Source: a virus. From it: a stretch of 36,620 bases of DNA. Position numbers and translations under genes: made by a program. The notes beneath the pieces were generated by a model. It was not told the origin of the DNA and did no database searches. It saw only the letters and a program-made list of their open reading frames with translations. Location: positions 1-36,620 of the IMG/VR virus record IMGVR_UViG_3300010370_000100, one strand, 5' to 3'. Positions 11,601-36,159 of this stretch are shown piece after piece (within the stretch, counting starts at the first letter, position 1; the number at the start of each line of letters is the position of its first letter).

Positions 11601-13543
11601 AATGAACCAACACAAACATTGGTGACATTTTGGACTGCAGAGACTGTAAAATTAGTTCCTCCAGCACTTACGGTTTCCACTTTATTAAATATAGCAAGTC
11701 CACCTTGGCTTGGGTTTCCATATTTAATGATATCTCCACTGGAAAGAACATTTATAAAGTTTGTTCCCAAACCAGCAGAAACTGTGCTAATTCCTGCAGA
11801 TTCTGCTGTAATTTTAAATGTTGTGCTTGGAGCAGCAATATTCAATTGCTTACTCAATAACATGTCAGCATTAAATGTTGAAACTCCAACTTTCGTTGCA
11901 TAAATTGATTTTACATCTGAGATATTATAGTCAGTAATAGTTTTAATTAATCTTCCATTTTCAATTCCATTGATAATAATCGGTTCATTTGGTATAAACT
12001 GCCCATACACATTATAGAGAGTCATGGTATGGAGACCACTTACACCATCCTTCAGATATGCGGCTGCCCCACTCTTTTTACCTTCAATATATGCAGGAGT
12101 GGATTGGGTTATTGTTGTTGTTAATCCGATTTTTGTAAAGGTTTGGACATCAAACAATCTCAAATTTAATTGACTGGAATCATCAACATAACCAACTGAT
12201 GGGATAAAGTCATATATTCTTGCGTATCCAATAGTCGTTCCAGCTGCAACACCTTTGTCGGATCCAAGACGAGAATCCATTAAACTTACAAATGCAGTTG
12301 TTCCTAAACCAACAGATGGAACACCAAAAACATTATTGACTAAAAATTGAGTTCCCGCATTAAAGGAAATTGATTGGTTTTCTAAAGTTTGTAATGTTCT
12401 TGGTTTTTCAACATCGACAAATTGTTGATTTACAGATTCTACTTCATATCCATTTACATATGCTTTTCCAGAACTAATTTCAAAGGTCATCAAATCATCA
12501 GATGGCGTATTACCATCAATTGTGATTTGGTCCTCGTAGTAAATACCAGTCGTATTTACTAATCTATCGTTGAGAGTGTCTCTTGGATTGACAGTAAATG
12601 GTTTGACATAAAAATCGCCAGATTGGTCAGCAGTTCTTCTTGCCAACTCATCACGAATTACATTATATTGTGTTTTTGTAACTTTAAATTGTGGAACACC
12701 ATCAAAAATCGAATATAAAGTGATAAAGTTTTCCAGATCAGTTTCATTAATTGATCTTTTATCTAATTTAAGTTCTAATTGAAATCTATCAGAACCTGGA
12801 GCTGAGTAATTAGAAAAACCTTGAGCATTATCAAATAAAGATTCGTCTTCATCTGCAGTGACAATTCTTTCAATAATAGTAAAACCAACTTTAAAAGATG
12901 GCGTGATTCCGTATTGATCTAAAATGATTCTTTGTTCTTGTGCCTTGGCAAAGATACCTCTAACAAAGAAAATTCCTTCTTTAATTGATATTGACGATCC
13001 AGCAGTTGATGCATTAGTAGCAATAGAATTGCAAATTCCTTGACCTTGAGGAATTGTAAATCCATTACCATAGGTTATTGTTTCTTCTGCAAGTAAAGTT
13101 TCCCCATCCAAGAAATTTTGGGAGTTGAAATTAGATTCGCCGTTGGAAATATACTGCAAATATAAAGTATGAACACCTCTTTCAGATTCTGTGTTGCTTA
13201 AAACATATCTGACAATTGCAACAATACCACTTGTTTGGCCTTTAATTTTCTTATCAATTAACTGATTAAAATATAAAGATATTGGTAGTCCATTATATTC
13301 GGATTCTACTTGAATGGCAGGAAAAACAATATCATTTCCAATTTGCCCATCTAAAACGGGAGACCCTTCTTTAAAAACGTGAGTTCCAAATCTTTCAATT
13401 TGATTTTGGAGAATTGACTGCAGCGTGGTTAATTCACGGGCTTGCAGGGGTACACCAGGTTTAAATAAAACCTTATGGTAACCTTTGTCCTCATCAAAAT
13501 CATCAAAATAAGGAGAAACGTTGAAGTTAGTCTGTTGAGGCAT
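5666..13543 (-). CDS. DUF4815 virion structural protein, 2625 aa
   Basis: This is a very large tail or baseplate-associated protein. Residues 1-40 (TNFNVSPYFDDFDEDKGYHK, then LFKPGVPLQARELTTLQ) are the typical DUF4815 opening, and IERFGTHVFKEGSPV continues it. DUF4815 features extend to about residue 1280 (SRSENVTAFLISFWQGTLKL). Residues about 1290-1480 look like an insert with Lys-rich segments. Residues 1770-1970 form a conserved cyanophage segment (CPYDPIAQTFFV to SLFKSQNGYTWTPSQLDDLK). Several SGA-type modules (GKTSGAKATI, GKNSGAMALV), GGTGY repeats and an E-x-RG module (about 2205-2265) are embedded. Its place between gp8 and gp13 is where T4 has gp9-gp12, so a baseplate-periphery role is inferred. 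Confidence 0.9.
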   Translation of the reverse strand: MPQQTNFNVSPYFDDFDEDKGYHKVLFKPGVPLQARELTTLQSILQNQIERFGTHVFKEGSPVLDGQIGNDIVFPAIQVESEYNGLPISLYFNQLIDKKIKGQTSGIVAIVRYVLSNTESERGVHTLYLQYISNGESNFNSQNFLDGETLLAEETITYGNGFTIPQGQGICNSIATNASTAGSSISIKEGIFFVRGIFAKAQEQRIILDQYGITPSFKVGFTIIERIVTADEDESLFDNAQGFSNYSAPGSDRFQLELKLDKRSINETDLENFITLYSIFDGVPQFKVTKTQYNVIRDELARRTADQSGDFYVKPFTVNPRDTLNDRLVNTTGIYYEDQITIDGNTPSDDLMTFEISSGKAYVNGYEVESVNQQFVDVEKPRTLQTLENQSISFNAGTQFLVNNVFGVPSVGLGTTAFVSLMDSRLGSDKGVAAGTTIGYARIYDFIPSVGYVDDSSQLNLRLFDVQTFTKIGLTTTITQSTPAYIEGKKSGAAAYLKDGVSGLHTMTLYNVYGQFIPNEPIIINGIENGRLIKTITDYNISDVKSIYATKVGVSTFNADMLLSKQLNIAAPSTTFKITAESAGISTVSAGLGTNFINVLSSGDIIKYGNPSQGGLAIFNKVETVSAGGTNFTVSAVQNVTNVCVGSLPTSEISVNDLRVIRGSVGSPDSTLLTELNRTNVKTFNIANSAITQRRIFQNQAFAANSLVLTITDADIIFDAFDEDRFVISYADGSIEPLDETQYSLNATGKILTFNGLSKTSGNADVIATVRNTKPNSKIKKFNSVGSLVVNYSKYTASGIGTTTLNDGLTYSQVYGVRVQDEEICLNFPDVVKVLGVFESQSTADPQLPRLTLSSFSGPTANNQDFVLGEHILGKNSGAMALVVNRVDTDKLEYVYLNASTFDVGEVIVGKDSNINATITSITLSDQNVSNKFGFDDGQRDSFYDYSRLIRNKNAEEPKGKLKIIYQYYTIDSSDTGEFITATSYADKDFKYNIPYFNNTRLTDFVDIRPRVPAYTLSSNSPFEFASRNFTSPGQYSQYILAPGENIIASFSYYLPRVDRIILNPDGNFQIVKGIPSDTPEPPLSKAGTLDVAIVGIPGYLHNVVNANVELIKHKRYRMQDIALLEDRIQKVEEFTTLSALESKMASMTIKDAATGLDQFKCGIFADNFTNMNSIDEGSKISHDSATNTIRPPQFTTKIDLQLGSELISGFTDTFSPNADAKFATKVGPGMKKTGNLVTLDYTEVEYKKQSFASRSENVTAFLISFWQGTLKLQPTVDKSDAPIVNTDKSVTVNNPTKTLSKPEDIEETISTVKEYTQDKVVYSDDPAPVITANAPQNYVQNLVDDYNYKKKAFKSFGTKEVTKQTKKGAITKVIKNGSYISGSQKNGKITLTVKSLNKYGVDNAKKVLSEYLPQDKVEEFVGSIQNKKNQSGKFIFTPGEIEKTYDETVKLTTTAGDPISGTEILSIQEFPEKLGEEKTTTTNDEITEGNYKYLVSRNVEFDANGLKPVTQHYPFLSTVEMSKYVVPKLLEIKMSGNTAFQVGETVESDVFGNTNVNIKFRLCTPGHKNGPYDAPTDSYNLVPYTQQPPETTYSTASTVLYVDTFALQDQKNTPEFKGYVAKGMTLTGKTSGAKATITDVRLISDSVGTLQGSLFIPNPEKPENPAFSAGENKFFLTDVPLLSIPSGTLNAGGTYLNQSTADAVYTGASIQKTITKVTTTTITPTITPSYKKTIFQPTKTNVNVTTIQKQLLEKYTQTDQFKVSGQLPKIGLTSSDNIAKCPYDPIAQTFFVSEKTGLFLTSLDVFFKTKPDFGSQTADTVTLQIRTVENGTPTSTTLPYSEVTLSPDKINLSTDGSVATKFTFASPVYLDGPKEKVVAGAEKGSESFAEYAIVLLSNSKEYEVFIARLGENDLQTNTKISVKAGDENMLGSLFKSQNGYTWTPSQLDDLKFTLYKAQFVTEGTCTFFNPQLNIGSKTKPVLPANSLIPLSKKIAVGLGSTGYDSTTIVTGVTLAQGSARGTLAGIGGSITVGTGATVSNSGFGYTNGTFTGINLTTETGVGQGAQATVIVVSNKIDTVTITSGGTGYAVGDSLLIPDIGQNVGFGGQVAVTSIASNNTFVIDNVQGQFSAGVALSYVDSSGSVTSLGTGVTISSITNDSFYDGLHMKIIQPNHGMHSVSNFVEIKGMRPLNSDLNSTLATELTSTETTTIELASGAGFDLFEGVAVSAANPGYVIIGNEVIQYTAVSGNSLTGLTREIDGTQANTYPVSTKVYRYQFNGFSLRRLNKVHNFGEVDTTNHPIDLNSYYIKVDADGTDFDGVGIGSNRTNDLYFTKTGQTGSTGVEVSNNIQFESIRPNINGFVVPSTDLSAQIRTFSATSVGGNETSFQDQGFIDLDLDDVTYFETPRLIASDTNSSRYLTTVPGNRSLAIQMLLTSDDSNVSPFIDTENITYVQLASNLINNPIGFSNPVSYALNDSVRSLTKDKHSTVLVTKPVKMKLPANALSVTLTASKSTSSDFRVLYRLFRVDAPELSQNFELFPGYSNSTIDGIGNKVVIDPSLNDGTPDLKPINSDDLSPKSYTYSVENLPDFDAFSIKVVMASTNQALPPIIGSLSAIATTKPKV

Positions 13544-30089: not shown

Positions 30090-30242
30090 TTAGATTTCCT
30101 CCATTTCAATTAAAGTTGGATCAATAACCTCTTCATTATAATAAGAGATTGAGAGTTCGTCAAGAACCTCAGAGCATTCTTCTACAGTGAGGTTCACATA
30201 AATTTTACGTCCTTTATAAAGAATATTATAAAGTTTGTCCAT
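30090..30242 (-). CDS. Small acidic protein, 50 aa
   Basis: It starts MDKLYNILYKGRKIYVNLTV and ends DPTLIEMEEI. The strand-helix pattern (a beta hairpin, then a Glu-rich helix EECSEVLDELSISYYNEEV) suggests a small folded domain. The function is unknown. Its ATG shares one base with the TGA of the glycosyltransferase-like gene and its end carries the ribosome site of the basic 46-residue gene, so it is firmly within this operon. Confidence 0.78.
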   Translation of the reverse strand: MDKLYNILYKGRKIYVNLTVEECSEVLDELSISYYNEEVIDPTLIEMEEI

Positions 30243-31012
30243 CAGATCACGCGAGTTTTTTCATGACCCACACGAATCCGAGGGTCACACCAGATGTCAA
30301 AACCTGCTTCCTTTGCATCCAGACAGAAGGAGACATCCTCTCCACACATATCTTGAACCGCACCGGACTCAAAGACTTGCATCTTCGGAGCAAACCAAGG
30401 ATACTCAAGATTCTCAAAGACTCCCTTTTTAATGAGAACCCAACCAAATCCCGTGTAATCCACTGTGAAGGGCTTACGACGCTTTGAGATGCTCTCCACA
30501 GTTTCGTGGTTCATCACACCACCATTGCGGCGGAAATCATCTTCTTCCAACCAGTGTGCCACTGAGGTCGTGTGACCATCTTCTGTGGCATACCAACCAG
30601 CGACAACTTCCTTATCTTCACCTTTTTCATTCAGAGCCAAATCACAGAGTTGCCAGAACTTTTCTGTGTTGAATACAATGTCACTATCAATCCAGAGTTG
30701 ATAGTCATAATTCAATTTACCATCCCAAGGAATCTGCTTAGGCCCACGAAGAACATTTGCACCTAAACATTTGCATCGTGCAAAGTTTACCATAGATGAG
30801 TAATCTTGAGAGATCTGAATGGCCATGTTATTCTGTACCATGTCAAAGCACAGTTGTACAAATGCCTTCAGAAAAGTAAATGAACAACCTCTTCCAGGAA
30901 GACAGAAGACAATTGACTTCCCTCGCATTCTTTCTTTAATCGCATCATAGTCCCATTCTTCTTTCTGGGATACTGATGGTGCTTTTGCTTTTACTGTAAA
31001 TCCTTTTGCCAT
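30242..31012 (-). CDS. GT-A fold glycosyltransferase-like protein
   Basis: The protein has 256 residues. A beta strand opening (GKSIVFCLPGRGCSFTFLKA, 31-50) is followed by a helix and SMVNFARCKCL, then DYQLWIDSDIVF with a D-x-D at 109-111. This is the metal and nucleotide-sugar site expected of GT-A transferases. The C-terminal half has DYTGFGWVLIKKGVFE (185-200) and GEDVSFCLDAKEAGFDIW (224-241), typical of the acceptor/catalytic side (Glu-Asp), and ends with VGHEK. Homologues occur widely in cyanophages next to gp25; the sugar and target are unknown. It may glycosylate a virion protein, the host surface or DNA. A sigma-70 promoter lies just upstream at 31035-31063. Confidence 0.75.
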   Translation of the reverse strand: MAKGFTVKAKAPSVSQKEEWDYDAIKERMRGKSIVFCLPGRGCSFTFLKAFVQLCFDMVQNNMAIQISQDYSSMVNFARCKCLGANVLRGPKQIPWDGKLNYDYQLWIDSDIVFNTEKFWQLCDLALNEKGEDKEVVAGWYATEDGHTTSVAHWLEEDDFRRNGGVMNHETVESISKRRKPFTVDYTGFGWVLIKKGVFENLEYPWFAPKMQVFESGAVQDMCGEDVSFCLDAKEAGFDIWCDPRIRVGHEKTRVI

Positions 31013-31034
31013 AAGAGAAATTAACTTCAGTTCA

Positions 31035-31063
31035 ATTTTATCAGATTATATATAAGTTGTCAA
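31035..31063 (-). promoter_or_regulatory. Sigma-70 type promoter, TTGACA-17-TAAAAT
   Basis: The minus strand has a perfect -35 TTGACA at 31063-31058, a 17-bp spacer and -10 TAAAAT at 31040-31035. A TATAAT lies within the spacer as well. It overlaps the last codon of the preceding gene and points at the glycosyltransferase-like gene, 23 nt further on. A host-polymerase early promoter is the simplest reading. Confidence 0.65.
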
Positions 31064-31245
31064 TAAGATGCTTCTAATTCCTTATTGACTAGGAGTTCTT
31101 CATAAGACAGATCCTCAACCTTATATTCCGTATTCATAATCGCAATCATATTTTGAACGGTTCTCCATGCAGGCAAAAAGTCTTGCTCTTTTAGAGAATG
31201 CATCAAACATATATTCCCTGCGTATATGTGATAAATTTTTTCCAT
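31060..31245 (-). CDS. Small conserved phage protein, 61 aa
   Basis: The sequence is MEKIYHIYAGNICLMHSLKE, then a helix around FLPAWRTVQNMIAIMN and a C-terminal VEDLSYEELLVNKE. The opening resembles short cyanophage proteins beginning with a similar M-x-x-IYHIYA strand. The function is unknown. The frame extends to 31371, but that part overlaps the separate basic 39-residue gene, which has its own strong ribosome site; the ATG at 31245 is the sensible start even though its own ribosome site is weak. Confidence 0.7.
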   Translation of the reverse strand: MEKIYHIYAGNICLMHSLKEQDFLPAWRTVQNMIAIMNTEYKVEDLSYEELLVNKELEASY

Positions 31246-32296: not shown

Positions 32297-32492
32297 ATTG
32301 ATTTTTAACCATTTTTCGTCGAATATCACGCTTAATTTGATTCAAAGCATGACGACAAGAGGGTGTAGCACTGGTGACAATACTAACTCCAGAGATATGT
32401 TTCCAGACAAGATGTGTGCTCGAACGATCTAATTGAAACCCATAAGATTCCATCATCACTGTGAGATCCTTTTTGAATGTCTTGGTGCTCAT
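32295..32492 (-). CDS. HicA-like (YcfA) small protein, orphan
   Basis: This 65-residue protein matches the HicA mRNA-interferase/dsRBD-like fold: a helix (TFKKDLTVMMESYGFQLDR), then SSTHLVWKH with a His at 27 where HicA has its catalytic His, then a strand (GVSIVTS), and a C-terminal helix CRHALNQIKRDIRRKM. In toxin-antitoxin pairs HicA is followed by HicB. No HicB-like gene is next to it here, so it may be an RNA-binding protein used by the phage rather than a toxin. The gene overlaps the upstream membrane-peptide gene by ATGA and ends the operon of module A. Confidence 0.65.
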   Translation of the reverse strand: MSTKTFKKDLTVMMESYGFQLDRSSTHLVWKHISGVSIVTSATPSCRHALNQIKRDIRRKMVKNQ

Positions 32493-32614
32493 TGTTGTGT
32501 TGTGGATTGAAGAGTGTTACCAATGAGATGAAACAATTCCCCTGTGTTATACCTTAAAGATGGGGAGAGTATAAAGAAGATCAGGAAGATGATCGGGACG
32601 ATGTTCTTTCTCAT
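32489..32614 (-). CDS. Small single-pass membrane peptide, 41 aa
   Basis: MRKNIVPIIFLIFFILSPSL is a positively charged start followed by a hydrophobic stretch (residues 5-18), so a membrane anchor or uncleaved signal. The remainder has RYNTGELFHLIGNTLQS, a pattern (RY-x-TG-x-x-hydrophobic) that I recognise from small conserved membrane proteins of cyanophages and marine cyanobacteria. The function is unknown. It overlaps both neighbours by 4 nt (ATGA at each end), the best evidence that this very short gene is translated. Confidence 0.75.
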   Translation of the reverse strand: MRKNIVPIIFLIFFILSPSLRYNTGELFHLIGNTLQSTTQQ

Positions 32615-32808
32615 GGTGCGAGATGTGCTTTAGTTCCGCAGGAAAGATAGAACTCAACCATATTCATTGCCTCTTCATATGTCGTGAACCATTGTGATCT
32701 CCATTCACACTGATTATAAGGAGTTTGGTAGCGAACTTCGTAGCGAATCATGTGAAGATCTAGGAGAATTGAATCGAAGGAAAGTGCAATCGAGCAGGGA
32801 TCATTCAT
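32611..32808 (-). CDS. Small protein, 65 aa (or 46 aa from an internal start)
   Basis: Two starts compete. The ATG at 32808 overlaps the upstream stop in the same ATGA manner as the other genes of this operon and gives 65 residues. The internal ATG at 32751 gives 46 residues beginning MIRYEVRYQTPYNQCEWRSQ, which looks like the natural domain: a strand, then WFTTYEEAMNMVEFYL, a pattern seen in small phage proteins. The first 19 residues of the longer form (MNDPCSIALSFDSILLDLH) contain SIALS, also found near the N-terminus of the 41-residue protein at 31738. The function is unknown. Confidence 0.65.
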   Translation of the reverse strand: MNDPCSIALSFDSILLDLHMIRYEVRYQTPYNQCEWRSQWFTTYEEAMNMVEFYLSCGTKAHLAP

Positions 32809-33119
32809 GCCAGACGCATACCAGAGAAGAAAGGAATCGGTCCGCCTTCTTGTTGCAGAAACCACTGAAAATCTTTCTGAAACACACGCTCACCAGGGAT
32901 TCCATGCTCTTGAAGAATAGCATTGAGGCGAGACTTTGTGGTTGCAGTTTGATGTCCACCATCGAACAATTCGATCCAGGTTTCACCAATGCGAGCAATC
33001 AGATTGCCATACAGAAACACATCAGAGGAGTTAGTATAAGAAACCACTTCAGTGTTAGCAAGTTTCCAATCTTTGCCATTGGTGATAGCATTGTTCATCT
33101 TACGTTCGATGACTCGCAT
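32805..33119 (-). CDS. Conserved small phage protein (ATTKSRLNA family), 104 aa
   Basis: The core VFLYGNLIARIGETWIELFD followed by GGHQTATTKSRLNAI and GERVFQKDFQWFL is a pattern I recognise in many cyanophages and related phages; its function is unknown. It is a small alpha/beta protein without membrane segments. It is the first gene after promoter module A, with a leader of about 50 nt that can form a GGGG-ATCGA-CCCC hairpin (33164-33152). No good ribosome site precedes 33119, and an internal ATG at 33098 (MNNAITNGKDW) would match the usual N-terminus, so the start is uncertain. Confidence 0.8.
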   Translation of the reverse strand: MRVIERKMNNAITNGKDWKLANTEVVSYTNSSDVFLYGNLIARIGETWIELFDGGHQTATTKSRLNAILQEHGIPGERVFQKDFQWFLQQEGGPIPFFSGMRLA

Positions 33120-33174
33120 GATGTGAAGAGAGAGAAGAGTTGTGGTCGGTGGGGGTCGATCCCCTTCCGATGTG

Positions 33175-33236
33175 GCTAATATACCAAGAATCCGGGGGTC
33201 TGTGGGGAATCAGTGGACAGTCTGCTGACTGGCACA
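33175..33236 (-). promoter_or_regulatory. Repeated promoter module A
   Basis: Boxes in order on the minus strand are TGTGCCAGT (33236-33228), CTGTCCACTG, CCCC and GGTATATTAGC (33185-33175). The -10 is TATATT with TGG before it, i.e. extended. No -35 hexamer is present at 17 bp. The two end boxes are 42 bp apart, as in modules B and C. It heads the operon 33119-32295. Confidence 0.65.
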
Positions 33237-33241
33237 CTCAG

Positions 33242-33415
33242 TCATTCTTCTAACAATTCAGGATAGTATTCTTCTACCTCAGTCTTCAATTCATTCTCCG
33301 AATACTTATCATAACTCTCTTGCATCATATCATAAATCATCGCTGTCATTGTCTTCAAATCCATGTCATCAATGATCTGATGAATGAGGGCATCTTGGAG
33401 TTCAGAACGGTTCAT
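33242..33415 (-). CDS. Conserved small acidic protein, 57 aa
   Basis: The sequence MNRSELQDALIHQIIDDMDL continues KTMTAMIYDMMQESYDKYSE, then NELKTEVEEYYPELLEE. This is a helical, acidic protein of a kind common in cyanophages and picocyanobacteria; the function is unknown. The frame is open to 33487, but the ATG at 33415 follows the upstream stop by only 4 nt and gives the expected N-terminus. It is the last gene of operon B. Its stop lies 5 nt before the TGTGCCAGT box of module A. Confidence 0.8.
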   Translation of the reverse strand: MNRSELQDALIHQIIDDMDLKTMTAMIYDMMQESYDKYSENELKTEVEEYYPELLEE

Positions 33416-33419
33416 GATT

Positions 33420-33620
33420 TCAGTTGAGAATGATACGATAATCAATGGACTTGATGCACCAACCTGTAGCAGATGTGATCTCTTCAACTAGATCATCTTC
33501 ATCATCTGCTTCCCAGATCATACCAATCGTTTCATCGGTAATGTTAGAGAATTGATGCTCTGGAAACTCATCAACAGCATCATCAAAATCAAACTCAATG
33601 TCAGTAACTTGGAATTGCAT
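33420..33620 (-). CDS. Conserved small acidic protein, 66 aa
   Basis: The opening MQFQVTDIEFDFDDAVDEFP and the end EDDLVEEITSATGWCIKSID form a pattern (E-DE-DL-V-EI---TGW-I-SIDY) widely seen in small proteins of T4-like cyanophages. The function is unknown. A GTG at 33629 overlaps the upstream stop (GTGA) and would add three residues; I prefer the ATG at 33620. The high Asp/Glu content makes it one of several very acidic small proteins here, possibly nucleic-acid mimics or protein-binding inhibitors, but this is a guess. Confidence 0.8.
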   Translation of the reverse strand: MQFQVTDIEFDFDDAVDEFPEHQFSNITDETIGMIWEADDEDDLVEEITSATGWCIKSIDYRIILN

Positions 33621-33625
33621 TTGAT

Positions 33626-33844
33626 TCACTTAACAATGGTGACGGTTGTAGAATCAGGGTCAAAAGTAATCTCTTTGATGACATCGAAATCCTCTGTCAT
33701 CTTGACATAATTCCAATCACCTTGATCCTCACCCATTTGATACAAATGAATGAAACCTTCAGCATCTTGCTTTACATAACAACCATCGTAATCTTCCTCA
33801 TCAAAGACATAACCAGCAGCAATGAGTGATTGTGAAAAAAGCAT
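33626..33844 (-). CDS. Small acidic protein, 72 aa
   Basis: The function is not recognised. MLFSQSLIAAGYVFDEEDYD is followed by GCYVKQDAEGFIHLYQMG, QGDWNYVKMT and a C-terminal TTVTIVK strand, suggesting a small mixed alpha/beta domain. There is no membrane segment or catalytic motif. The gene lies 8 nt after the 54-residue gene and runs directly into the 66-residue gene, so it belongs to operon B, headed by module B. Confidence 0.78.
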   Translation of the reverse strand: MLFSQSLIAAGYVFDEEDYDGCYVKQDAEGFIHLYQMGEDQGDWNYVKMTEDFDVIKEITFDPDSTTVTIVK

Positions 33845-33852
33845 GATTTCAA

Positions 33853-34017
33853 TCAGTAGTTAGAAACAGTGGTGAAGATGATGCCAGTCTCATTATATCG
33901 AAGATCGACATCACACTGATACTCTTCAGACAAAGAATACGCGAGATCGTATGCTTTATCAAGATCGGTGGTAGTATTCTCCCAAGGAGCAGCGTTGCAC
34001 TTAACGTCGATCCGCAT
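33853..34017 (-). CDS. Small protein, 54 aa, first gene of operon B
   Basis: The frame reads MRIDVKCNAAPWENTTTDLD, then KAYDLAYSLSEEYQCDVDLR and YNETGIIFTTVSNY. A strand-helix-strand pattern with a central amphipathic helix is clear; the function is unknown. Its leader of about 20 nt, starting at module B, contains AGGAAA as ribosome site. That leader is almost identical to the one of the gene at 34825, which strengthens both calls. Confidence 0.8.
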   Translation of the reverse strand: MRIDVKCNAAPWENTTTDLDKAYDLAYSLSEEYQCDVDLRYNETGIIFTTVSNY

Positions 34018-34020
34018 TTG

Positions 34021-34057
34021 TGTCGTTTCCTGATTACTTAGCTAAGATACCACCGAT
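34021..34057. repeat. 37-bp perfect direct repeat, copy 1
   Basis: These 37 bases are identical to 34825-34861. The repeat spans, on the minus strand, the region from just before the extended -10 of module B to just before the start codon of the 54-residue gene, so it carries the -10, the start site and the ribosome site. Confidence 0.85.
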
Positions 34058-34102
34058 TTGACACGTTTGGGGGATTTGGTGGACACCTTTGCAACTGGCA
34101 CA
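34041..34102 (-). promoter_or_regulatory. Repeated promoter module B
   Basis: On the minus strand: TGTGCCAGT (34102-34094), TGTCCACC, CCCCC and GGTATCTTAGC (34051-34041), with 42 bp between the end boxes. -10 TATCTT has TGG before it. The module lies inside the 3' end of the membrane-protein gene, whose TAG stop is the TAG in the last box. It heads operon 34017-33242. Confidence 0.7.
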
Positions 34103-34302
34103 GGAGTCAGTTCATTGCGAACAAATATGACAAAATTATCAAGAACTCCCATCATCCATAGAATAGCATTGCGACTCTTTTCTGTCATGTTATTTGATAC
34201 CCATGAATCACGAGTAAAAGTAACAAATGCCACAATGATTGCAGACCAAAATGCTGCGATCAGAATGAACTTATCGACAACAGCATTAAGTGAAGTTTTC
34301 AT
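34042..34302 (-). CDS. Small membrane protein, 86 aa
   Basis: The protein begins MKTSLNAVVDKFILIAAFWS and residues 12-30 (FILIAAFWSAIIVAFVTF) form one membrane segment. A second hydrophobic stretch near residues 48-64 (ILWMMGVLDNFVIFV) may be another. The C-terminus is Lys-rich (VAKVSTKSPKRVKSVVS) and is encoded across promoter module B, so the last 20 residues may be dictated by the promoter sequence. The frame is open to 34365, but 34302 starts 8 nt after the upstream stop and gives a sensible N-terminus. The function is unknown. Confidence 0.75.
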   Translation of the reverse strand: MKTSLNAVVDKFILIAAFWSAIIVAFVTFTRDSWVSNNMTEKSRNAILWMMGVLDNFVIFVRNELTPVPVAKVSTKSPKRVKSVVS

Positions 34303-34310
34303 AAGATAAA

Positions 34311-34583
34311 TCAAACGAAAGAAAGTTGTGGTGCAGGTTGAATCGAAAACTTGTGATTGTGACAACTCAAAGAATAGTTTGGTGGTAACATTGACTCGCG
34401 TTCAATCAATTCCCACGAATCTTCATTCTCTTTGATAACAGCAAATCCTAGAACTCCTGCAGTTGGCATCATGTACTTTCCATGACGTTCTGCATCCTTT
34501 GCAGTGTAAAATCCTCTTGCGGCGATATTCCACCACTCGGAAGAGAATTGTTCTTGCTTACCGAAATAGAGACAAACAAACAT
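34311..34583 (-). CDS. Small hypothetical protein, 90 aa
   Basis: The function is not recognised. The N-terminus MFVCLYFGKQEQFSSEWWNI is followed by AARGFYTAKDAERHGKYMM and a strand-rich middle (GVLGFAVIKENEDSWELIER). It looks like a soluble small alpha/beta protein, perhaps with the pattern of stress- or host-interaction proteins, but no motif supports that. It starts 11 nt after the preceding gene within operon C and is followed by the membrane protein after 8 nt. Confidence 0.75.
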   Translation of the reverse strand: MFVCLYFGKQEQFSSEWWNIAARGFYTAKDAERHGKYMMPTAGVLGFAVIKENEDSWELIERESMLPPNYSLSCHNHKFSIQPAPQLSFV

Positions 34584-34594
34584 TGTTCTAAGAA

Positions 34595-34825
34595 TCAGAA
34601 GTGTGCTTCGGAGTAGTCAAGTTGTGCAGAGTATTCTGCAATTTTATTGTAGCATTTCACTCGCATTTCATCATCAGCACCTTCGATAAATGAGAAGCAA
34701 TACTTCATTCTTTGCTCAGGATGTGCATTGATGCGAGCAATCTCAGCTTGTTGCTTCTCACGATAGGAATTGTAAGCGAACATTTCCCGATCTTCAACAC
34801 TCATGTTGTGATACTGTCGTTGCAT
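34595..34825 (-). CDS. Small helical protein, 76 aa, first gene of operon C
   Basis: The sequence starts MQRQYHNMSVEDREMFAYNS and continues YREKQQAEIARINAHPEQRM. It is helix-rich, highly charged and lacks membrane segments; the function is unknown. The ribosome site AGGAAA lies about 7 nt before the ATG inside the 37-bp repeat that it shares with the gene at 34017. It is preceded by promoter module C, so the start is well supported. Confidence 0.82.
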   Translation of the reverse strand: MQRQYHNMSVEDREMFAYNSYREKQQAEIARINAHPEQRMKYCFSFIEGADDEMRVKCYNKIAEYSAQLDYSEAHF

Positions 34826-34861
34826 GTCGTTTCCTGATTACTTAGCTAAGATACCACCGAT
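34825..34861. repeat. 37-bp perfect direct repeat, copy 2
   Basis: This copy is identical to 34021-34057 and is placed the same way, between the extended -10 of module C and the start codon of the 76-residue gene. Confidence 0.85.
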
Positions 34862-34906
34862 CCGAGTGCTCGTGGGGAAATGGTGGACAGCCGTCCAACT
34901 GTCACA
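34845..34906 (-). promoter_or_regulatory. Repeated promoter module C
   Basis: On the minus strand: TGTGACAGT (34906-34898), CTGTCCACC, CCCC and GGTATCTTAGC (34855-34845), with 42 bp between end boxes. The first box contains the TGA stop of the 33-residue gene. It heads operon 34825-34042. Confidence 0.7.
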
Positions 34907-35003
34907 TGGGATCTTTGTCTTTGTTAAGATTGTTGAACATTGGTGAGAATAGTGCTAACAATGCCCACGCAATACTTGCAGAAATAATAAGAAAGTAAAT
35001 CAT
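34902..35003 (-). CDS. Tiny membrane peptide, 33 aa
   Basis: MIYFLIISASIAWALLALFS followed by PMFNNLNKDKDPM is almost entirely one membrane segment (residues 2-20) with a short polar tail. Very short hydrophobic peptides like this are common in cyanophages; the function is unknown. Its ATG shares one base with the TGA of the 87-residue gene, and its own stop falls in the first box of module C. Confidence 0.7.
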   Translation of the reverse strand: MIYFLIISASIAWALLALFSPMFNNLNKDKDPM

Positions 35004-35266
35004 CACCAAGTTCCACGCTGCACATGAATCTTGCGAATCTCAGCGTAAATAAACTTCTTCAGTTTATCATCGGTTGTATTATCAAATGCACAATGTAGAC
35101 GCGCAAGATATTCGTCTTGTGTCACACATTTGATAGATTCTTTGCTACTCATTCCAATGTCATTGAGTGTAGAACCTGCCTTAGCTTTGGGTCTTCCGAA
35201 GTTACCTGTGATGTTGCCCTGTGTTCTCAGTTTCGGGCGAATCTTTGAAAGATTAGAATACATCAT
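35003..35266 (-). CDS. Small basic protein with AT-hook-like segment, 87 aa
   Basis: The N-terminal third is basic: MMYSNLSKIRPKLRTQGNIT, then GNFGRPKAKAGSTL. The core GRPKAK at 24-29 resembles the GRP core of AT-hooks. The rest (QDEYLARLHCAFDNTTDDKL and a C-terminal helix) is helical. DNA binding is plausible but unproven. The ATG at 35266 overlaps the upstream stop (ATGA) and is preferred over the TTG at 35272. Confidence 0.72.
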   Translation of the reverse strand: MMYSNLSKIRPKLRTQGNITGNFGRPKAKAGSTLNDIGMSSKESIKCVTQDEYLARLHCAFDNTTDDKLKKFIYAEIRKIHVQRGTW

Positions 35267-35466
35267 GACCAAGTGTTTAAGTATTCTTCGAGAGTGAAAT
35301 CTTCACCAGTGCTTGTTTCCTCAATCAACTCATCATAAGACATTTCTCTCAACATCTCATGATATTCTTCAGGAGTTGCATCATTGTCTGGGTCGAAATC
35401 ATCGTGACACAGAAACACATATTCATTGTAAAGTGCGTCGATTAGTTGTTCTTTTGATAGAGTCAT
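35263..35466 (-). CDS. Conserved small acidic protein, 67 aa
   Basis: The pattern MTLSKEQLIDALYNEYVFLC then HDDFDPDNDATPEEYHEML and DELIEETSTGEDFTLEEYLN is a family I recognise from cyanophages; the function is unknown. It is strongly acidic and helical. The ATG at 35466 overlaps the upstream stop by 4 nt, which fixes the start against the longer open frame to 35502. It sits in the middle of operon D. Confidence 0.82.
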   Translation of the reverse strand: MTLSKEQLIDALYNEYVFLCHDDFDPDNDATPEEYHEMLREMSYDELIEETSTGEDFTLEEYLNTWS

Positions 35467-35669
35467 TCTTCTAAACGAATAAATTGATTCTTCAGATTCC
35501 AATAAGTGTAATAGTAATCTTTCTCCATATTGTTGCGAACAAGTCCAGAGAAAGAGTGTAGATTGTTTTTCTCAATCTTCACTCTATTCTCATCCCACCA
35601 CTTATCAAACTCTCTTGCTTTTTTATAGTGGATTTTGGAGATTGAGTCGCTATGATAATCAGCGAGCAT
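35463..35669 (-). CDS. Small charged helical protein, 68 aa
   Basis: The function is not recognised. The sequence begins MLADYHSDSISKIHYKKARE and has FDKWWDENRVKIEKNNLHSF and a Tyr/Trp-rich YYYTYWNLKNQFIRLEE end. The ATG at 35669 starts 11 nt inside the end of the preceding gene; the frame is open to 35714, but that start would overlap the upstream gene much further. It is overlapped by 4 nt by the next gene, in the middle of operon D. Confidence 0.72.
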   Translation of the reverse strand: MLADYHSDSISKIHYKKAREFDKWWDENRVKIEKNNLHSFSGLVRNNMEKDYYYTYWNLKNQFIRLEE

Positions 35670-36075
35670 ACAAGTAACCTCCAGACCAATCAGCATTTGC
35701 AAACAAATACTCACGATCTTTAATCAATCTCAGATCATAACGTACACCTTTCGCAGGAGACTTCCATGATGCTGATTTATACACTTCACCCGTCTTCTTG
35801 TCTACGAAAGCATGAACAGAGCGCGAAGATCCACCATCCATCATGATAATCTTGTGATACTTTTTACCAGTCTCAATTACATAATTGATGGGTGAAGTAC
35901 CTTGCTTCAGTTTCTCAATGCAGGCAAGATGATAGTCTACATTCTCACCTTTGTCAGCATAACGCTGATGACCACGAATAGCATAGTCATGATAGTTCTG
36001 AACCAGCGCATCACATAGCATGTACGAATACTTTAGAACATTGTTAGAAATGGTCTCGATTGCTTGTGCTTGCAT
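35659..36075 (-). CDS. Conserved phage protein, 138 aa, first gene of operon D
   Basis: The N-terminal half is helical (AIETISNNVLKYSYMLCDAL, with VQNYHDYAIR). The C-terminal half has RSVHAFVDKKTGEVYKSASW, then KSPAKGVRYDLR and DREYLFANADWSGGYLY, a pattern I recognise in many cyanophages and also in picocyanobacteria; the function is unknown. Three starts are possible. The ATG at 36075 has GGA about 6 nt upstream and the usual short N-terminus. The ATG at 36093 would be at or near the transcript start of module D. The frame is open to 36126, through the promoter. Confidence 0.8.
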   Translation of the reverse strand: MQAQAIETISNNVLKYSYMLCDALVQNYHDYAIRGHQRYADKGENVDYHLACIEKLKQGTSPINYVIETGKKYHKIIMMDGGSSRSVHAFVDKKTGEVYKSASWKSPAKGVRYDLRLIKDREYLFANADWSGGYLYAR

Positions 36076-36096
36076 TGCGGTTCCGTTGTTCATATG

Positions 36097-36159
36097 GCTA
36101 AGATACCAAGAAACGAAACCACGCACAAGGGGCTGTGTGCAACTTAATCAACTGGCACA
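36097..36159 (-). promoter_or_regulatory. Repeated promoter module D
   Basis: On the minus strand: TGTGCCAGT (36159-36151), GTTGCACAC in place of TGTCCACC, CCCC and GGTATCTTAGC (36107-36097), with 43 bp between end boxes. The -10 is TATCTT with TTGG before it. The predicted start falls on the ATG at 36093, so the transcript may be leaderless, or serve the ATG at 36075. It heads operon 36075-34902. Confidence 0.6.

Follow-up and report, generated by a model that had tools for sequence, protein, structure and literature searches.

A 24-bp inverted repeat at a fixed distance from a -10 box heads small-gene operons in a cyanophage-related genome fragment and is probably part of an early-type promoter of T4-like cyanophages

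The 36,620-base IMG/VR record IMGVR_UViG_3300010370_000100 (hereafter the window, meaning this whole stretch of DNA) carries on its minus strand four runs of small genes, each headed by a similar set of short sequence boxes, which raises the question of what this element is, how it is built and which phages share it. A sequence-only reading of the window had described it as a multi-box promoter module. The analysis presented here indicates that the module probably serves T4-like cyanophages (Kyanoviridae and S-TIM5) as an early-type promoter and includes a site for a dimeric, most likely activating protein. Judged from its sequence, the window itself is a relative of T4-like cyanophages; in its second half, all of the best DNA matches were Synechococcus phages, and a layout in which baseplate genes are followed by a run of small genes is common to the window and the freshwater phage DSL-LC02.

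The four copies are designated A to D in the direction of transcription. In copies B (34906–34845), C (34102–34041) and D (33236–33175), all the described boxes were found, namely TGTGCCAGT or TGTGACAGT, TGTCCAC, CCCC and GGTAT[C/A]TTAGC, with 42 bp between the first and the last box. Copy A (36159–36097) contains the first and last boxes, 43 bp apart; TGTCCAC was not found there, and its place is taken by AAGTTGCACA, which mirrors TGTGCCAGTT better. The distances of 42, 42, 42 and 43 bp reported earlier were read directly from the sequence, and the full set of boxes was confirmed in three copies and not in the fourth. The first two boxes occur at their fixed spacing three times in the window (0.34 expected), and GGTATMTTAGC is present at four exact sites and one site with a single mismatch (0.64 expected). 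A sequence model trained on 59 modules from other contigs, with the window left out of the training, returned exactly three copies (E-values of 5.7e-14, 9.5e-13 and 5.2e-12) and nothing beyond them up to E = 10. The remaining copy, A, had a lower score of 14.1 bits and fits a palindromic subclass described below: its half-site differs at one position from the palindromic form and at five from the TGTCCAC form. Each of the four copies stands at the head of three to five tightly packed small open reading frames (ORFs) on the minus strand, as had been noticed before.

To what extent this arrangement is general was estimated in larger sets of sequences. A strict-pattern scan of 2.9 million viral contigs revealed the module in at least 119 stretches from cyanophage-like contigs; the contig samples are non-random and these counts are lower bounds. 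Among the matches listed, every copy was followed by a -10-like hexamer and usually, shortly after it, by a gene start. The sequences further show that the first two boxes, previously treated as separate upstream elements, are the two halves of one 24-bp imperfect inverted repeat (dyad), TGTGMCAST-N6-ASTGKCACA, since perfect inverted repeats are present in loci fetched by protein homology alone, e.g., TGTGCCACT AATCAA AGTGGCACA and TGTGACAGT CCCCGA AGTGTCACA. The TGTCCAC form, to which three of the window copies belong, is a subclass whose half next to the promoter has CCAC in place of CACA at its end. The palindromic form accounted for 640 and the TGTCCAC form for 212 of 869 non-redundant modules, a ratio that reflects how the loci were gathered.

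In 234 of 243 aligned non-redundant modules, the -10 hexamer, TA(T)NNT in nearly all copies, starts 51–53 nt past the first G in the dyad, which corresponds to a distance of 28–30 bp between the dyad and the -10. Around perfect dyads, TATNNT peaked 28–30 nt away (20, 90 and 55 of 420 sides, versus about 2 per position elsewhere), in a search that itself demanded TANNNT at 28–30. With the looser TANNNT, numerous sites were obtained on both strands. A TATNNT hexamer was found on both sides in 14 of 210 dyads versus on one side in 139, so a bidirectional promoter was rejected; the module is mostly one-directional.

The region between the dyad and the -10 had been read as lacking a -35. This has to be corrected, as copy A contains TTGTGC 17 bp from TATCTT, and the CCCC box lies at the -35 position in the other three copies. 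In the palindromic class, TTG peaked at a spacer of 17 bp (16.3% of copies, compared with about 1% for the majority of other spacings). In the TGTCCAC subclass, CCCC peaked 17 and 18 bp from the -10 (24.5% and 23.1%). The C-tract therefore occupies the place of the -35 hexamer, i.e., the CCCC box is in register with it. The extended -10 (TGG) noted earlier is present in copy A and is not a general property, with TG preceding the -10 in about 27–30% of copies. Taken as a core promoter, the module has the features of the sigma-70 (SigA) type: a -10 near TATAAT, TTG at 17 bp in a minority of copies and, in many of the remaining ones, a C-tract at that register.

The module is also positioned with respect to genes. 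Of 349 modules, 258 had a same-strand reading frame of at least 50 codons ending at them, as did 90 of 349 random positions; in 234 of 317 cases, an ATG opening an ORF was located 20–29 nt past the -10. The proposal of a promoter-proximal regulatory module that stands at operon heads and defines a co-regulated set withstood the comparison with random placement and is supported. Note that copies B and C overlap the 3' ends of upstream genes in the window. The last ORF of operon A (33 amino acids (aa)) ends with a TGA stop (in CATGTGACAGT) inside the left half-site of module B (34906–34898), and the third ORF of operon B (34042–34302, minus strand) crosses the whole of module C, with its TAG just after the -10 of that copy (TATCTTAG).

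The location of the repeat at the 3' end of an upstream gene in most copies (the same 258 of 349) would also be expected if it worked as RNA, namely as a terminator or hairpin at the 3' end of the preceding operon, brought near the promoter by gene packing, and perfect copies could make a 9-bp stem. Yet no U-tract follows the repeat, and its distance to the -10 is fixed. In the palindromic class, the mirrored bases at position 5 are independent of each other (p = 0.41) and those at position 8 avoid pairing (odds ratio of 0.32, p = 2e-10), statistics in which kinship among the sequences was only reduced and the remaining relatedness was ignored. This is the opposite of what is expected of a selected stem. 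With neither pairing covariation nor a U-tract, the hairpin was rejected as very improbable, and a protein reading DNA half-sites is favoured, since the mirrored positions do not keep their pairing. Position 8 is anti-symmetric, TGTGMCAGT being partnered by TGTGMCACT more often than by itself, which might reflect unequal contacts of the two half-sites.

Several near-identical copies per genome, and the same leader sequence behind window copies B and C, could likewise suggest a non-regulatory repeat, i.e., a mobile, recombination or origin sequence copied among operons. However, flanks and spacers differ while the half-sites, the spacing and the -10 are kept across very different contigs, and the copies are strand-specific relative to genes. 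The fixed promoter geometry disfavours such a repeat, and we consider this explanation the least probable of all.

In an examination independent of the motif, protein similarity was used to fetch non-redundant regions with homologues of the genes that open operons D and A and, as a control, of a late gp25-like gene; a dyad with no more than 4 mismatches in 18 positions was sought within 240 nt upstream. It was present upstream of 24 of 41 homologues of the operon D gene (15 of 205 in shuffled sequences) and 25 of 51 homologues of the operon A gene (23 of 255 in shuffled sequences). None of the 21 late gp25-like control genes had it within 240 nt. On other contigs as well, homologues of both first genes are found with the dyad at their head.

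To determine which phages carry the module, whole records were searched at E ≤ 0.05, with partial and opposite-strand matches at the same dyad included in the counts. Between 3 and 19 matches per record were found in 13 records: 9 in Syn9, 10 each in DSL-LC02, P-TIM40 and S-PM2, 3 in P-HM2, 12 in P-SSM2, 18 in S-CRM01, 4 in S-TIM5, 11 in a 204,930-base record taken as Bellamy and 11–19 in each of four further large viral contigs. The expected recurrence in cyanophages was thereby borne out, with the module present in S-TIM5, the four contigs and all eight T4-like cyanophage records tested (Syn9, DSL-LC02, P-TIM40, S-PM2, P-HM2, P-SSM2, S-CRM01 and Bellamy). Whole-record searches of T4, Ma-LMM01, PSS2, P-SSP7 and Syn5 gave no module matches. 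A search of 84,980 species genomes for the complete module, -10 included, detected it in only five contigs of metagenome-assembled genomes (MAGs), labelled Burkholderiales, Gammaproteobacteria and Microbacteriaceae, and in no cyanobacterial contig; a host regulon was rejected on this basis. Three of the five MAG contigs come from one Microbacteriaceae bin, and the module-bearing MAG contigs are suspected to be mis-binned cyanophage DNA.

A study of Syn9 and P-TIM40 by Doron et al. (2016) reportedly described a novel element that controls early-gene transcription, differs from those of T4 and occurs abundantly, in conserved form, among T4-like cyanophages. The module is very probably this element, since Syn9 and P-TIM40 both carry it (9 and 10 matches); the identification is made by way of these phages. 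The earlier suggestion that the module is previously undescribed is thus probably wrong, and its finer anatomy may be new. The motif letters were not found quoted in the literature searched, which did not include the text of that study, and no dyad-binding protein was found named there. Early-gene homologues of S-PM2 and Syn9, and not those of S-RSM4, have been reported to have sigma-70-like motifs upstream (PMC2984593).

Among known systems, T4 middle promoters, with a MotA box used together with AsiA, are similar in having a phage-specific site beside a host-type -10, a poor -35 and dependence on an activator, which for the module would be the inferred case. Unlike the module dyad, the MotA box stands in place of the -35, around -30, and does not have the form of a 24-bp dyad; moreover, T4 itself has no module match, and cyanomyoviruses lack motA and asiA as well as alt, modA and modB (PMC2984593). 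A middle (MotA) promoter was rejected given the different position and symmetry and the zero matches in T4. A T4-like late promoter would have TATAAATA at -10 before virion genes; the window copies have TATCTT or TATATT, and the dyad was found at none of the 21 gp25-like genes. The statement that the module is unlike the early, middle and late promoters of T4 is supported. The outer TGTGA/TCACA arms of a dyad upstream of a weak -35 are reminiscent of class I and II activator sites of the CRP type (TGTGA-N6-TCACA). In contrast to these, the arms of the module are 14 bp apart rather than 6, the half-site is TGTGMCAST and the dyad centre lies near -52 rather than at -41.5 or -61.5; an operator of the CRP/FNR family was rejected on account of the 14-bp arm distance. 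That a phage promoter can employ a transcription factor of its host has precedents in cyanophage promoters with Pho boxes for the host regulator PhoB (PMC10976474) and in the host regulator NtcA, which recognizes GTA-N8-TAC (PMC3037559). The sequence and symmetry of the module differ from those of both sites, and no cyanobacterial contig carries the full module.

As far as can be read from sequence, the module combines a dyad, fixed spacing, a -35 register, an operon-head position, a defined range of phages and a link to orthologous genes. From these features we infer a transcription start, early timing, protein binding and activation. In the proposed mechanism, host RNA polymerase with its main sigma factor would read the -10 and, where present, the TTGnnn -35, and transcription would start 6–8 nt past the -10. 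The dyad would then lie at about -64 to -41, immediately upstream of the -35 position, and would be occupied by a dimeric DNA-binding protein that activates through contact with the polymerase instead of blocking it. Each copy would start a short transcript across small, mostly uncharacterized genes of early infection. The bound protein is most likely an activator, given that most copies have a poor -35 and that the dyad is fixed 28–30 bp from the -10, beside the core promoter. If the genes are immediate-early, the binder would have to be available from the outset and would come either from the host or with the virion.

Dyads are, however, typical of dimeric repressors as well, and early shut-off is common in phages, so the dyad could be the operator of, for example, a phage-encoded repressor that closes the early genes as the middle genes begin. 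A few module-headed first genes have winged-helix matches (MarR_2, HTH_IclR). One of them, the first gene behind a module at 11774–12064 of contig L081, encodes a 97-aa winged-helix protein with MarR_2/IclR matches, possibly a regulator under the module's own control. This gene was observed in just one cluster, made up of one or a few contigs, and is not common to all genomes. In addition, the dyad lies upstream of the -35 and -10, not over them, at its fixed 28–30 bp from the -10, and a weak -35 in most copies is unexpected where a promoter needs only to be blocked. Activation is consequently favoured over repression: we regard the former as somewhat the likelier mode of action and the latter as rather unlikely.

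Several observations weigh against an activator-dependent early promoter. About half of the operon D and A gene homologues have no recognizable dyad within 240 nt; these genes may sit inside longer operons. Operator quality showed no correlation with -35 quality, and the predicted trade-off, in which a better operator accompanies a worse -35, was not found, aside from a difference in TTG frequency between the half-site subclasses (28% versus 15%, p = 7e-5). Furthermore, marine picocyanobacterial promoters often have no -35, and a poor -35 is for this reason weak evidence for an activator.

In the window, the features of the four copies can be assigned as follows, all on the minus strand. Copy A contains the dyad operator TGTGCCAGTT GATT AAGTTGCACA of the palindromic subclass (36136–36159), the -35-like hexamer TTGTGC preceded by CCCC and located 17 bp from the -10 (36123–36128) and the -10 TATCTT preceded by TGG (36100–36105). 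Copy B has the operator TGTGACAGT TGGACG GCTGTCCAC (34883–34906), the C-tract CCCACG at the -35 position (34871–34876) and TATCTT (34848–34853). The corresponding elements are TGTGCCAGT TGCAAA GGTGTCCAC (34079–34102), CCCCAA (34067–34072) and TATCTT (34044–34049) in copy C, and TGTGCCAGT CAGCAG ACTGTCCAC (33213–33236), CCCACA (33201–33206) and TATATT (33178–33183) in copy D. The operators of copies B, C and D were also matched by the sequence model, and that of copy A was assigned by mismatch count.

Family searches attributed the first gene of operon A (35659–36075, 138 aa) to DUF7717/phrog_818, of unknown function; the further genes of this operon are located at 35463–35669, 35263–35466 (phrog_734) and 35003–35266. 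Besides the ORF that crosses module C, operon B includes genes at 34595–34825 (phrog_15469) and 34311–34583. Operon C consists of genes at 33853–34017, 33626–33844, 33420–33620 (phrog_2460) and 33242–33415. The first gene of operon D (32805–33119, 104 aa) belongs to Kyano_Gp96 (PF23790)/phrog_554, also of unknown function, and is followed by small ORFs at 32611–32751 and 32489–32614. Some genes of the Kyano_Gp96 family behind the module have a leader of 50–60 nt with a 5' stem-loop versus the usual unstructured leader of 20–29 nt, and the family contains both types. Such long leaders were seen in the window (33120–33174, minus strand; folding energy of -12.2 kcal/mol, z = -1.75) and in Syn9 (about 53000–53110).

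Elsewhere, 65 representative module-headed first genes were inspected; the named matches included an anti-restriction protein, a DNA methyltransferase, a helicase and a few nucleases, and the others were of unknown function. In Syn9, seven of the nine module copies are located within the small-gene block gp55–gp93, and the remaining two precede gp150 (peptidase) and gp153 (cobS). One copy in DSL-LC02 likewise lies immediately before a peptidase gene. No module was found in Syn9 before gp43, gp32, uvsX, nrdA, psbA or gp23, i.e., genes for replication, photosynthesis and virion proteins. In Syn9, the start annotated for gp61 (44804) precedes the module -10, and the first ATG past the promoter is at about 44855 (region 44804–44860); this start was probably annotated too early.

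Outside the module-headed operons, a 256-aa ORF of the window (30242–31065, minus strand), named glycosyltransferase in one record, showed 75–80% DNA identity to many cyanophages, far above the rest of the window. Neither an Rfam scan nor a tRNA scan gave any hit in this stretch of DNA.

In the sea, a large share of Synechococcus and Prochlorococcus cells falls victim to T4-like cyanophages. How these phages start their programme without the RNA-polymerase-modifying proteins of T4 is an unsettled matter (PMC2984593). We tentatively put forward, as a possibility short of an even chance, that one immediate-early switch is common to all T4-like cyanophages, in which a dimeric activator, host-made or virion-delivered, acts on TGTGMCAST-N6-ASTGKCACA and makes a nearly -35-less promoter strong within the first minutes, and that the dyad symmetry is a new description. 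If this is true, the shared dyad switch would be a route of early takeover distinct from the Alt/MotA strategy of T4. The anatomy, with its half-sites, fixed spacing and -35 register, makes the promoter open to experiment and defines a 24-bp bait for this purpose, and the module allows early genes, probably those of host takeover or anti-defence, to be listed from sequence in any cyanophage contig.

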